Below, in pieces: positions 11,078-17,797 of a stretch of DNA of 19,327 nucleotides (its first letter is position 1; every line of letters starts with the position of its first letter). The notes under the pieces are model-generated. The model saw only the letters and a program-made list of their open reading frames with translations, did no database searches and had not been told where the DNA came from. The stretch is from Gammaproteobacteria bacterium. Lineage in GTDB: Bacteria; Pseudomonadota; Gammaproteobacteria; Xanthomonadales; Xanthomonadaceae. Both the position numbers and the translations under genes were made by a program. The stretch lies in assembly GCA_012510865.1 (NCBI GenBank), contig JAAZHF010000426.1, forward strand, positions 1-19,327, given 5' to 3'.

Positions 11078-13594
<2,517 letters not shown>

Positions 13595-13618
13595 TTACTT
13601 ATAGGGCTTCAGGCGGCC

Positions 13619-13645
13619 ATTATACCAGTTCACACTCCGTGGTAA
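13619..13645 (-). promoter_or_regulatory. gyrB promoter with extended -10
   Basis: On the minus strand there is a consensus TATAAT (complement of 13619-13624) preceded by TGG, i.e. an extended -10 TGnTATAAT. A weak -35 TTACCA (13640-13645) lies 15 bp further up. Transcription would begin about 13612, giving a leader of about 84 nt. A second TATAAG hexamer is at 13598-13603. The rest of the 278-bp recF-gyrB gap holds a parS-like site (13780-13795) and a small inverted repeat (CCCGAC 13663-13668 with GTCGGG 13675-13680); no further gene is seen. Confidence 0.72.
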
Positions 13646-13779
13646 GGGCCTGCTGATGGCGGCCCGACCGTCGTGTCGGGGTGTCCGGCAAGCGCTCCCC
13701 GGATCGCGGCGCGGGGAGTAGTGCCCCGGACCACGATGGCGCGCGCGGCGCGGAGGATCATCGCCGGGTGCGACGAAAT

Positions 13780-13795
13780 GGTTCCACGTGAAACC
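13780..13795. promoter_or_regulatory. parS-like centromere site 1 (recF-gyrB gap)
   Basis: GGTTCCACGTGAAACC matches the bacterial parS consensus (TGTTCCACGTGAAACA form, as in Bacillus), and the flanking T and A extend the dyad to 18 bp with one mismatched pair. It is in non-coding DNA, 12 bp after recF, so protein coding cannot explain it. ParB binding here would place part of the segregation centromere next to gyrB. Confidence 0.8.
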
Positions 13796-13806
13796 AGTCG
13801 CCGGAA

Positions 13807-14883
13807 TTACGTGGCCGCAACCACTCCCCGTTCCACGTGGAACACCCGGAGCTCCGGCACGGCGCCATCGAGGGCGTCCGTCCCGGTGATGAAGACCTGC
13901 GCCGGCGTCTCTCCGAGGAACGCCAGGACGCGCGCCCGGTGCGCGGCGTCCAGCTCCGAGGCGAGGTCGTCCAGCGCGATGACCGGCCAGTCGGCGCGTT
14001 CGGCGGCGCAATCGGCGGCCTGCGCGAACAGGCAGGACAGCGCCGCGAGCTTCGCTTGGCCGCGGGAGAGGGCCTCGCCCCCTGCCTTGCCCTCAAGCCG
14101 AAGACGCCAGTCCGCGCGGTGCGGCCCCACGCTGGTATGGCCCAGCGCCTGGTCCCGTTCTCGCGCAACCGCCAGCGCATCCGCCAGCGACAGGCTGGAC
14201 CGGCGCCATCCGGCATCGAAATCCAGCGACATCCGCCCCAGCCCCGGGGCCAGCGCCGCGCCGACCATCGAAAGACGCTCCTGGAGCCGGTCCAGGTAGA
14301 GCGCGCGGCGCCGCGTCAGCTCCTCTCCGGCAGAGGTCAGCTCGTGGTCCCACGCCGAAATCTGTGCGGCAGGGGCGCCGGACTTGAGCAGCGCGTTGCG
14401 CTGGCGCAGTGCCCGCGAATAGCGGCGCCAGACGGGCAGGAAACCCTGTTCCACGTGGAACAGACCCCAGTCCACGAATCGGCGGCGCGGCTCGCCGCCT
14501 CCCGAGACGAGCGCATGGCTGCCCGGCTCGAAGGTGACCCCCATGAAGGCCGCGCACAGTTCCCCCAGGTGCGAGACCGGCTCGCCGTCCAGTCGGGCCT
14601 CCCAGCGGGCGCCCGAGTGCCTGAGACCGGCGCGATGGGGGGCAGCGTCGCCTTCGACCTCCCATTCGGCGAACACCTCCAGCGCCTCCTGCCCGGTCCG
14701 GACCAGCCCATCGCGGACCCGGCCGCGGAAGCTGCGGCCGTAGGCCAGCAGGTGCAGCCCTTCCAGGAGGCTGGTCTTGCCCGCGCCGTTGGCGCCGATG
14801 AAGACATTGAGCCCGGACGAGGGCCGCAGCTCGACCTCGGCCAGGTTGCGCAGGTTGCGCAGCCGGAGGCGGGTCACTCGCAC
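13807..14883 (-). CDS. recF: DNA replication and repair protein RecF
   Basis: The 358-residue SMC/ABC-like ATPase binds gapped DNA and helps load RecA during recombinational repair of stalled forks. It has Walker A GANGAGKT (30-37) following SGLNVFI, a Q-loop region YGRSFRGRVRDGLV, the ABC signature-like ALSRGQAKLAAL, Walker B VIALDDLASELD, and D-loop/H-loop VFITGTD. DWGLFHVEQGF (about 138-148) and QRNALLKSG are RecF hallmarks. The start is GTG 14883, giving MRVTRLRLRNLRNL, which matches the family N-terminus. It follows dnaN after a hairpin-containing 73-bp gap. Two perfect parS palindromes are embedded in the coding sequence, each as codons for FHVE. Confidence 0.97.
   Translation of the reverse strand: MRVTRLRLRNLRNLAEVELRPSSGLNVFIGANGAGKTSLLEGLHLLAYGRSFRGRVRDGLVRTGQEALEVFAEWEVEGDAAPHRAGLRHSGARWEARLDGEPVSHLGELCAAFMGVTFEPGSHALVSGGGEPRRRFVDWGLFHVEQGFLPVWRRYSRALRQRNALLKSGAPAAQISAWDHELTSAGEELTRRRALYLDRLQERLSMVGAALAPGLGRMSLDFDAGWRRSSLSLADALAVARERDQALGHTSVGPHRADWRLRLEGKAGGEALSRGQAKLAALSCLFAQAADCAAERADWPVIALDDLASELDAAHRARVLAFLGETPAQVFITGTDALDGAVPELRVFHVERGVVAAT
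13829..13844. promoter_or_regulatory. parS-like centromere site 2 (inside 3' end of recF)
   Basis: CGTTCCACGTGGAACA contains the perfect 14-bp parS palindrome GTTCCACGTGGAAC. It lies within recF and encodes Phe-His-Val-Glu near the protein's C-terminus (RVFHVERG). The 35-bp spacing from the previous site favours a real cluster, but coding constraint may have contributed to the sequence. Confidence 0.7.
14447..14462. promoter_or_regulatory. parS-like centromere site 3 (inside recF)
   Basis: TGTTCCACGTGGAACA is a perfect 16-bp palindrome identical to the parS form known from Pseudomonas. It is inside recF, coding for Leu-Phe-His-Val-Glu-Gln in the family-conserved DWGLFHVEQ segment. Because FHVE is common in RecF at this place, coding alone could explain part of the match; use of GAA rather than GAG for Glu is needed for the palindrome. 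Confidence 0.7.
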
Positions 14884-14897
14884 CGGGAGAACCCCGG

Positions 14898-14930
14898 AAA
14901 AGCAGAACGCCCGGGCGAGGCCGGGCGTTC
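14898..14930 (-). terminator. Intrinsic terminator or attenuator between dnaN and recF
   Basis: GAACGCCCGG (14905-14914) pairs perfectly with CCGGGCGTTC (14921-14930), a 10-bp stem with a 6-base loop. On the minus strand, TGCTTTTCC follows (four T from 14898-14901). This is a reasonable Rho-independent terminator for dnaN. As recF starts 15 bp later, it would reduce rather than abolish recF transcription unless recF has its own promoter. A parS-like site abuts it on the dnaN side. Confidence 0.65.
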
Positions 14931-14931
14931 C

Positions 14932-14947
14932 TGTTCCACGTGGAACC
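14932..14947. promoter_or_regulatory. parS-like centromere site 4 (dnaN-recF gap)
   Basis: TGTTCCACGTGGAACC contains the perfect 14-bp parS palindrome and matches the 16-bp Pseudomonas parS at 15 positions. It is non-coding, in the 73-bp gap between recF and dnaN, 10 bases past the dnaN stop codon and directly beside the terminator stem. With site 1 it is the strongest evidence that the cluster is a genuine ParB-binding region. Confidence 0.82.
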
Positions 14948-14956
14948 CGTGAAGGA

Positions 14957-16057
14957 TCACAGGCGCAGCGGCATCACGACGTGGCGCGAGCGCTCGTTGG
15001 CCGCCTCGCGCACCAGCGCGGACGAATTGGCATCGCGCAGGGCCAGCACCACGGTCTCGTCGCGCAGCGCGCCGAGCGCGTCGAGCAGGTAGTTGACGTT
15101 GAAGCCCACGGCCAGGCCGTCGACCGACGTCTCCGCCTCGACTTCCTCCTGGGCCTCTTCCTGCTCCGGGTTGTGGGCGTTGATCCGCAGCTGGCCCGGC
15201 GACACCTCGATCCGGACGCCGCGGTACTTTTCGTTGGAGAGGATCGCCGCCCGCTGCAGCGCGGCGCGGAGCACCTCGCGGGCGATCCGGACCTCGCGGT
15301 CGGCGCCGATCGGGATCACCGCCTCGTAGTCGGGGAAGCGGCCGTCGATCAGCTTGCTGGTGAAGGTCACGTCGTCGCGCTTCACCCGGATGTGGTTGCG
15401 CCCCATCTCGAGCTCGAGCACCCGGTCGCCGCCCTCCAGCAGGCGCTGCAGCTCGGACACGCCCTTGCGCGGCACGATGATCTGGCGCTTGGCCTGGACC
15501 CCTTCGTCCAGCGTGGCTTCGCACAGCGCCAGGCGGTGGCCGTCGGTGGCGACGCAGCGCAGGCGGCGCTCGGCGAGGTCGAACAGGAGCCCGTTCAGGT
15601 AATAGCGCACGTCCTGCTGGGCCATGGCGAACGCGGTCCGCTCGATCAGCTCCTTGAGCGCCGACTCGGGCACCTGCACGCGCTCGGTCGCCTCGACCTC
15701 GTCGATCGACGGGAAGTCGTTGGCCGGAAGGCTCGACAGGGTGAAGCGGCTGCGGCCGGCCTGGACCGTGATCCGGTCGCCGGACTGGCCGACCGTGACC
15801 CGGCTTCCGTCGGGCAGGGCGCGGACGATGTCAAACAGCTTCCGCGCCGGAATCGTGATTTCGCCATCCTGAGCGTCGTCCACGGCGCAGCGCGCGACCA
15901 TCTCGACCTCGAGGTCGGTGCCCGTGAGCGACAGCTGGCCGTCCTTCACCAGTGCCAGCAGGTTCGCCAGCACCGGCAGGGTCTGCCGGCGTTCGACCAC
16001 GTTGACGACCTGCGCCAACGGCTTCAGGAAGGCTTCTCGCTGCAGACTGAAACGCAT
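14957..16057 (-). CDS. dnaN: DNA polymerase III subunit beta (sliding clamp)
   Basis: The 366-residue protein dimerises to form the ring that tethers DNA polymerase III to DNA. Length equals that of E. coli DnaN. It starts MRFSLQREAFLKPL, followed by the family signature VVERRQTLPVLANLLALV and LTGTDLEVEMVA. It includes the domain-2 segment FDLAERRLRCVATDGHRLAL and ends with the clamp signature HVVMPLRL, where VMPxRL forms the binding pocket used by polymerases, MutS and DnaA regulators. The ribosome-binding site GGGG lies 11 bases before the ATG, a little long. It is downstream of dnaA across the probable oriC. Confidence 0.98.
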   Translation of the reverse strand: MRFSLQREAFLKPLAQVVNVVERRQTLPVLANLLALVKDGQLSLTGTDLEVEMVARCAVDDAQDGEITIPARKLFDIVRALPDGSRVTVGQSGDRITVQAGRSRFTLSSLPANDFPSIDEVEATERVQVPESALKELIERTAFAMAQQDVRYYLNGLLFDLAERRLRCVATDGHRLALCEATLDEGVQAKRQIIVPRKGVSELQRLLEGGDRVLELEMGRNHIRVKRDDVTFTSKLIDGRFPDYEAVIPIGADREVRIAREVLRAALQRAAILSNEKYRGVRIEVSPGQLRINAHNPEQEEAQEEVEAETSVDGLAVGFNVNYLLDALGALRDETVVLALRDANSSALVREAANERSRHVVMPLRL

Positions 16058-16217: not shown

Positions 16218-16270
16218 AAGCTGTGGACAAGTTCGGGGCCCGGGATCCATCCGCAGCTTGTCCACAGCTT
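16218..16270. repeat. Perfect 14-bp inverted repeat, each arm carrying a DnaA box
   Basis: AAGCTGTGGACAAG (16218-16231) and CTTGTCCACAGCTT (16257-16270) are exact reverse complements separated by 25 bp. Each contains the DnaA-box-like 9-mer TTGTCCACA (in opposite orientations). This symmetry beyond the 9-bp boxes suggests a binding unit for head-to-head DnaA, lying next to the AT-rich segment. Confidence 0.7.
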
Positions 16271-16311: not shown

Positions 16312-17664
16312 CTATTCACTGAGCTTCCGGATGAGCTTGTCCCAGTCCTCGCGGAGCTTGCCGTCGGTCTGCGTGAGGGTGCGGATCTGGCGGCAGGCGT
16401 GCAGGACCGTGGTGTGGTCCCGCCCCGCGAAGGCATCCCCGATCTCGGGCAGGCTGTGCTCGGTCAGTTCCTTGGCCAGCGCCATCGCCATCTGGCGCGG
16501 GCGGGCCAGCGAACGCGTCCGCTTCTTGCCCAGCAGGTCCTTGATCTGGAGACCGTAGTAGTCTGCCACGGTCCTCTGGATGTTGGCGATGCTGATCGCG
16601 GACTGCTGCGCCCGCAGCAGGTCGCGCAGGGTTTCCTGCGCGAACTCGGCGGTGATCGCGCGGCCGGTGAAGTTGGCCTGCGCCGACAGCGTGTTGAGCG
16701 CGCCCTCGAGGTCGCGCACGTTCGACGGCATCCGCTTCGCGAGCAGGAAGGCCACGTCCTCGGGCACGTGCGTCCCGCGCTCGCGGGCCTTGGCCAGCAC
16801 GATCGCCGCACGGGTCTCGAAGTCCGGCGGGTCGATCGCCACCGGAAGGCCCCAGGCCAGGCGCGACTTCAGCCGCGGCTCCAGCCCCTCCACTTCGCGC
16901 GGGAAGCGGTCGCAGGTCATGATGATCTGCTGCCGGCCCTCGAACAGCGCATTGAAGGTGTGGAAGAACTCCTCCTGCGTGCGGTCCTTGCCGGCGAAGA
17001 ACTGGATGTCGTCGATCAGCAGCGCGTCCAGCTGCTGGAACTGGCGCTTGAACTGGTCCGAGGTCCGTTCCTGCAGCGAGCGGAAGAAGGCGCTGTAGAA
17101 ATCGTTCGAACGCATGTACAGCACCCGCGCCGACGGGTTGTTGCGCCGCATCTCGTTGCCGGCCGCGAACATCAGGTGGGTCTTGCCCAGGCCGGTGCCG
17201 CCGTACAGCAGCAGCGGGTTGTGGGCGCGGTCGCCGGGCTTCTGCGCCGCCTGCCAGGCCGCCGCGCGGCCGAGCTGGTTGCTGCGGCCCTCCACGAAGT
17301 TGTCGAAGGTGTAGTGGCTGTCCAGGTTGCCGTGGAAGGCCGCGGCGCCGGCGGCCGCGCTGGCGGCCGTGGCCGCCGCCGTTGCCGGCGCGCGCGCGGG
17401 TTCCGGCACCGCGCGCGGCAGCGATCCGATTTCCAGCGAAACCTCGCCGCCGCCGCCGAAATGCCCCAGCAGCTCGCGGATCCGCGGCATGTAGCGCTCG
17501 TGCACGGCGTCGCGCACGAAGGCATTGGGCGCGTAGAGGACCGTTGCGTCCTCGCGGCGGGCGACCTGCAGCGGCCTCAGCCAGGTATGCACGTCCTCCG
17601 CCGGGAGTTCGGCTTCCAGGCGTTCGAGGCAGCGGGGCCAGGCATCCATGAATACGTTCGACAT
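16312..17664 (-). CDS. dnaA: Chromosomal replication initiator protein DnaA
   Basis: The 450-residue AAA+ initiator binds DnaA boxes and melts oriC. Domain I (residues 6-75) has [20 protein letters not shown] and WLRPLQ. Domain II is an Ala/Pro-rich linker (about 85-110). The AAA+ domain starts at [12 protein letters not shown] and has Walker A GGTGLGKT (155-162), Walker [10 protein letters not shown] and sensor motifs. Domain IV ends with the DNA-binding signature [18 protein letters not shown] 17664 (MSNVFMDAW) is used here; ATG 17649 (MDAWPRCL) is an equally plausible start as many xanthomonad DnaA proteins begin there. Neither has a clear ribosome-binding site. It is divergent from rpmH. 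Confidence 0.98.
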
Positions 17665-17731
17665 ACCGACAGCGGGACCGGCCGCGCGGCGTGGGCGGCC
17701 ACGTGCGGCGGGCGGTGGAAAGGGGCAGGCC

Positions 17732-17740
17732 AGCGTACCA
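17732..17740 (-). promoter_or_regulatory. Possible dnaA promoter, extended -10
   Basis: On the minus strand TGGTACGCT (TACGCT complementary to 17732-17737, preceded by TGG) resembles an extended -10. No good -35 is visible. The resulting leader would be about 60 nt. The rest of the 205-bp dnaA-rpmH gap holds the rpmH promoter and GC-rich DNA. Confidence 0.35.
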
Positions 17741-17797
17741 TCGCGTCCGGGCACGTGCGCGCCGGCGGTCGCCGCCCGGCGGCCCCGCGGGCCTGGA

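Follow-up and report, generated by a model that had tools for sequence, protein, structure and literature searches.

In Pseudomonas aeruginosa, the two parS sites nearest oriC, parS1 and parS2, are described as lying within recF (PMC5521831, PMC3909081), and any one of parS1-4 is reported to be necessary and sufficient for chromosome segregation (PMC4368675). The same report describes destroying an intragenic parS while leaving the protein unchanged and gives the Enterobacteriaceae as lacking this ParAB operon (PMC4368675). Going by these passages of the literature, parS within recF is already known in one species, P. aeruginosa. Titles and abstract openings revealed no account of recF sites across the class Gammaproteobacteria, although the survey tables of Livny et al. 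2007 may contain part of one; nor did we find in print a codon position fixed class-wide, an imprint on RecF, joint shifts of site variants, or parS in a dnaN-gyrB gap from which recF is missing.

The window analysed here is the whole stretch of 19,327 nt. It carries recF on the minus strand (13807-14883; ORF, TIGR00611, E 3.0e-95), separated by gaps at 14884-14956 and 13529-13806 from the minus-strand ORFs of dnaN (14957-16057) and gyrB (11078-13528), respectively. A dnaA ORF (16312-17754, minus strand, start codon as listed mechanically), which as a query matches ORFs beside dnaN elsewhere, marks the origin region. A motif scan confirmed what had been claimed in the preliminary description, namely that GTTCCACGTGGAAC occurs exactly at 13830-13843, 14448-14461 and 14933-14946 and a single-base variant, GTTCCACGTGAAAC, at 13781-13794; the four sites span 1.2 kb, at distances of 1.4-2.5 kb from the dnaA ORF. 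Checking against the ORF coordinates likewise upheld the placing of two sites in the gaps flanking recF and two inside it. Site A (14448-14461, no strand assigned, as for all four) reads TTC CAC GTG GAA in the RecF frame, encoding F142-H143-V144-E145 after DWGL, and is a perfect 16-bp palindrome, TGTTCCACGTGGAACA. Site B (13830-13843), near the 3′ end of recF, has the same TTC CAC GTG GAA and encodes F348-H349-V350-E351. The other two sites occupy the dnaN-recF gap (14933-14946) and the recF-gyrB gap (13781-13794). At the latter a base does differ, as had been pointed out, but the difference is no defect, since throughout the class these recF positions show GTTNCACGTGNAAC, in which position 4 may be C or T and position 11 G or A. 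All four sites conform to GTTNCACGTGNAAC, the palindrome expected of chromosomal parS. With up to three mismatches to the 14-mer allowed, the window gave five matches, against a mean of 0.63 and a maximum of 4 in 200 dinucleotide shuffles, which never reached 5. Taken with the evidence below, the sequence makes it very probable that the four sites form a chromosomal parS centromere in which A and B are dual-coded, as parS and as RecF F-H-V-E.

Two further observations concern the window outside this cluster. The fifth match (1601-1614, GTTCGACGTGGAAC) has one core mismatch and is probably due to chance; its altered core and its distance of 12 kb led us to reject it as a cluster member. The dnaN-dnaA gap holds two facing TTGTCCACA boxes (16222-16230 and 16258-16266), one mismatch from the DnaA-box consensus, as a candidate origin element; the window contains three DnaA-box-like matches, a number that is not significant, 25 of 200 shuffles having reached three or more.

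The assembly to which the window belongs is a draft of 2.67 Mb in 469 contigs, 91% complete. Scanned at zero or one mismatch, it yielded no match outside the window, and within the window only the cluster and the weak match at 1601. At two mismatches, six single copies appeared on six other contigs; these are noise, because at this setting the pattern matched 11 times per strand and its reversed control 8 times. Many copies spread evenly had been named beforehand as the finding that would count against a centromere, and the copies with at most one mismatch proved to be confined to the window in this draft. Few copies concentrated at the origin, as is usual for chromosomal parS, are thus what the 91% complete draft contains. 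The cognate proteins are encoded on another contig, where a ParA ORF (PF13614) directly precedes the parB ORF (PF02195, PF17762, PF23552). When the ParB HTH was aligned by eye, equivalents of the parS contacts R173, G201 and R204 were identified (GRSR, GHAR; numbering as given in PMC7383237), including R173 and G201, the parS-specific pair. Palindromes in and around an operon might also be operators for some other CACGTG-type regulator of the recF operon. We regard this as extremely unlikely, since the sequence equals published ParB sites, the ParA/ParB pair is present, and two of the sites lie deep within the coding region. A transcriptional side effect of centromeric sites is nevertheless plausible, because an excess of ParB is reported to lower the expression of neighbouring genes in P. 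aeruginosa.

Because the assembly is a 469-contig draft and 91% complete, distant copies may be absent from the data, and the four sites might be inert remnants of a centromere whose working counterpart lies in an unassembled stretch. That all four are intact, one of them as a perfect 16-mer, speaks against such decay and leaves this explanation hardly credible. GTTNCACGTGNAAC occurs in 193 of 198 genomes of the window's own family, two to five times and usually two to four, and is absent from five, while the reversed GTTNCACGTGNAAC control gives 0 to 2 matches per genome; where places were listed, the matches were clustered. Site A is present in 31/31 and site B in 29/31 own-family loci (the window plus 30), which again speaks against inert remnants; the sample is biased, since those 30 were selected for holding a parS match. 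Of the same 31 loci, 17 hold another site at the recF start region or upstream of it, corresponding to 14933-14946, and 4 hold one downstream of recF, corresponding to 13781-13794. The recF-internal sites are therefore the constant part of the arrangement in this family, and the gap sites come and go.

To place the locus in the class, we used a sample of 276 genomes at least 90% complete. In 226 of them, from 135 families, recF scored over the curated cut-off, and all 226 loci, selected on recF and not on parS, were fetched and their RecF sequences aligned. At least one parS, mostly two, was found in 234 of the 276 genomes (reversed pattern, 0 to 3), and ParB in 263. Both recF positions carry exact parS in 150 of the 226; another 29 have it at A alone, 17 at B alone and 30 at neither, which gives 179/226 for the A position and 167/226 for B; these genome counts are not independent events. 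Counted by family, 92 of the 135 have both sites in some member and 119 have at least one. Canonical parS numbers 446 in the recF-bearing genomes, 346 being A or B, and 140 of the 207 parS-bearing genomes in this set have no parS besides these two. The spacing between A and B has a median of 621 bp (range 597-669), and used as queries dnaN and gyrB identified same-strand neighbours of recF in 145/150 and 146/150 of the two-site genomes, respectively. The preliminary description had proposed that the centromere is built into the recF locus in this lineage; the confined copies, the clustered family motif and the ParA/ParB pair support the proposal, but its scope was understated, given the 92 of 135 recF-bearing families. 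Both canonical sites are missing in 24 of the 220 genomes that keep recF beside dnaN or gyrB, 6 of the 24 being the altered-site genomes described below. On a RecF tree built with the site columns removed, at least 33 state changes are required for A and 31 for B, indicating that the sites are favoured and not obligatory. A test of whether A and B are lost together on independent branches, based on 8 pairs with good branch support, gave a median p of 0.25. The two sites, some 621 bp from each other, have probably kept their places in RecF from an early stage in the evolution of the Gammaproteobacteria.

Two wider collections were also scanned. In a second sample of 299 genomes from the phylum, drawn by genome and hence weighted toward species-rich families, a loosened site-A pattern matched 52, of which 44 were among the 114 class members and 8 among the 185 other genomes; a recF ORF was absent from the six 3-kb loci representing these 8 out-of-class matches (G544 and G588 were left out). 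In a named collection the site-A pattern matched at least 118 stretches. Among the matches listed, 106 lie in recF, as the pattern was designed to find, with site B also in frame in 83 of the 106, and 12 lie outside a recF ORF, some of them ordinary parS near parA and one (L331) in a dnaN-gyrB gap. Of the 26 named loci read among the matches listed, 22 contain the A and B pair, including representatives of Pseudomonas, Xanthomonas, Stenotrophomonas, Rhodanobacter, Halomonas, Chromohalobacter, Alcanivorax, Methylophaga, Pseudidiomarina, Sedimenticola, Steroidobacter and Cycloclasticus; in Photobacterium ganghwense, Legionella anisa and Lysobacter terrigena only A lies in the recF frame, and L331 is without recF. 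In the class sample, both members of family f113 (L233 and L253) have neither A nor B; their recF ORF instead contains a parS at nucleotide 466, near A and in another frame, which may be an intragenic site created anew.

Sites A and B are read in an identical frame, a codon-final G followed by TTY CAC GTG RAA and then C, and the peptide is F-H-V, then E or K, then one of P, H, Q, R and L. The intragenic copies could have been kept for the RecF peptide FHVE, with the likeness to parS incidental. The FHVE windows are indeed among the best-conserved RecF 4-mers, taking third and fifth place for residue identity (69% and 62% of genomes), and Escherichia coli K-12 still has FHNE and FTVE at the two places without canonical parS in the 4 kb around recF, from which it follows that part of the peptide suits RecF in its own right. 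The codons argue strongly against this explanation. For RecF sequences reading FHV[EK], with the expectation taken from each gene's own codon use, exact parS was found at A in 179 of 184 genes (6.2 expected) and at B in 167 of 175 (7.4 expected). Fixation extends to the synonymous positions and to the final base of the codon before the site: at A the valine codon is GTG in 181 genes against 58.1 expected, and the preceding codon ends in G in 184 against 80.3. The first base of the next codon, C in 184 against 181.9 expected, is no evidence, because the residues found there already predict C. For comparison, residue identity reaches 72% in the Walker-A window GKTS, yet only 5% of genomes share its commonest nucleotide window, while the corresponding figures for the commonest nucleotide windows at A and B are 79% and 77%. 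Elsewhere in the same recF genes, 3 of 77,592 other codon-phase 14-mers came within two mismatches of the pattern. Moreover, the solved RecF structure 5zwu_A is without FHV at both aligned places, the residues change jointly at both places with the site variant, and parS occupies the gap once recF is gone (the latter two are detailed below). Retention for the peptide with incidental likeness to parS is thus very improbable. These data suggest instead that selection for ParB binding, and not RecF function alone, has fixed the codons at A and B and largely their residues.

Genomes in which one partner is missing or displaced bear on the centromeric reading of the sites. recF over the cut-off is absent from 50 of the 276 class genomes, and parS positions cover 11 of those 50. 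In 9 of the 11, 16 of 17 parS sites lie in the dnaN-gyrB gap, beyond the stop codon of dnaN and ahead of every in-frame start of gyrB, and tblastn searches of these nine gaps detected no recF; the gap measures 88 bp in G267 and 126 bp in G468. In the other two genomes the parS sites are situated near parA instead. A dnaN-gyrB gap with parS and without recF also occurs in the named MAG L331. Several such recF-less gaps (L187-L190, L192, L453) hold pairs of parS just 25-106 bp apart. Where neither dnaN nor gyrB was detected next to recF, a canonical site is found in 0 of 6 genomes, against 196 of the remaining 220; three of these six (family f45) have a weak ParB match only, and G202 keeps a near-parS at A.

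In three genomes in which ParB was not found, canonical parS is gone from both places: G350 and G443 have decayed, differing remnants at A and B, and G417 has none. Two others in which ParB was not found in the assembly keep a site, G310 at B and G309 elsewhere in recF. E. coli K-12 has kept recF, with the DNA CTTTCACAACGAAC and GTTTACCGTGGAAA underlying FHNE and FTVE, neither of them canonical, and a search of the 4 kb around its recF returned no canonical parS; the E. coli control genome shows some match to a ParB-family model. The absence of canonical sites from the two places in G350, G443, G417 and E. coli K-12 further speaks against the explanation of the window's sites as inert remnants.

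Six ParB-bearing genomes lack canonical parS and have a near-parS at both A and B. The two copies are identical in four of them: G218 (GTTCCACATGGAAC twice), G357 (GTTCCATGTGGAAC twice), G280 (GTTTCATATGAAAC twice) and G343 (GTTCCACGTAGAAC twice). In G200 they are mutual reverse complements and in G225 they are one base apart. In G218 and G280 the RecF residues have shifted with the DNA, M replacing V at both places (FHME or FHMK), and G210, a congener of G343, has canonical sites. Searched genome-wide with a broad pattern, G343, G357, G200 and G225 have both of their two matches at A and B, G218 two of three and G280 two of five; it is the position of these matches and not their number that counts as evidence, because the reversed pattern gives 1-4 per genome. 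There are few altered-site genomes, all of them drafts split into many contigs, with few relatives in the collection (two genomes in the family of G343, one in the order of G280). Among 28 aligned ParBs, no residue change marks the genomes with a shifted centre (TG/CA/TATA). The R204 equivalent is K in three aligned ParBs of GTTCCACGTAGAAC-type genomes (L398 from G343, L413 from G391 and L417 from G225), and also in G218 and in G210 with its canonical sites; the comparison involves tiny numbers uncorrected for kinship, and G205, the fourth GTTCCACGTAGAAC-type genome, lies outside the alignment. A change of R204 to K is a possible permissive step toward altered sites, which we offer as a lead only. 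The paired sites that shifted jointly, including two congeners that differ at both sites, provide natural experiments for ParB-parS co-evolution. Two side observations belong here. In G239 (L458), a canonical site stands beside an altered one, GTTTCACGTGAAAC and GTTTCATATGAAAC starting 18 bp apart. Family f141, which has ParB and no canonical parS, has in each of its two members (L462, which is G434, and G337:C14:25220) a GTTTCATGTGAAAC-type site some 2.5 kb beyond recF, in G434 near the end of gyrB.

Under the centromeric reading, ParB would load on the origin-side palindromes and spread over recF and its neighbours, and ParA would move the newly replicated origins via ParB after replication of the origin; by analogy, SMC would help move or organise the new origins. 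The same bases could serve as parS and as RecF because the alternating hydrophobic and polar residues encoded by the palindrome would suit the RecF chain at both positions. Since two sites hold fixed recF positions in many families, the RecF sequence bears the imprint of a centromere. For the class as a whole, we think it likely that two motifs among the best conserved in gammaproteobacterial RecF owe their presence to the DNA being the centromere, that the pair arose early in the class, that a change in ParB preference shifts both sites together with their residues, that deletion of recF leaves the centromere between dnaN and gyrB, and that the codons decay after ParB is lost, E. coli being an example. 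A repair protein would then have its primary sequence tied to the segregation machinery over many families; conservation of RecF at the A and B residues should not be read as reflecting RecF function alone, and recoding of recF could disturb chromosome segregation.

Among known systems, NBS, the site of another member of the ParB/Noc family, is a related palindrome with a related HTH reader and differs from parS at two positions (PMC7383237). The window sites are of the parS type: we rejected an assignment to NBS because they are centred on CACGTG and the window's own ParB has R and G, compared with Q173 and R201 in Noc. The parS of Xanthomonas citri, TGTTCCACGTGGAACG, located at the 3′ end of dnaN (PMC3937727), is comparable to the gap site at 14933; the paper speaks of "at least one" site and its main text leaves recF unmentioned, and in X. 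euvesicatoria (L351) we found both A and B in recF. The closest counterparts remain parS1 and parS2 of P. aeruginosa, with the same 14-mer in the same gene and two sites internal to recF. P. aeruginosa differs from the window in having parS3 and parS4 near oriC outside recF and, as described, six weaker sites elsewhere, whereas the additional two sites of the window directly flank recF and no others were found in its draft assembly. The published mutations of parS1 and parS2, judging from Table 1 of PMC4368675, appear to fall on the third bases of the F-H-V-E frame, and in three named Pseudomonas loci, P. aeruginosa not being among them, A and B are likewise read in the RecF frame.
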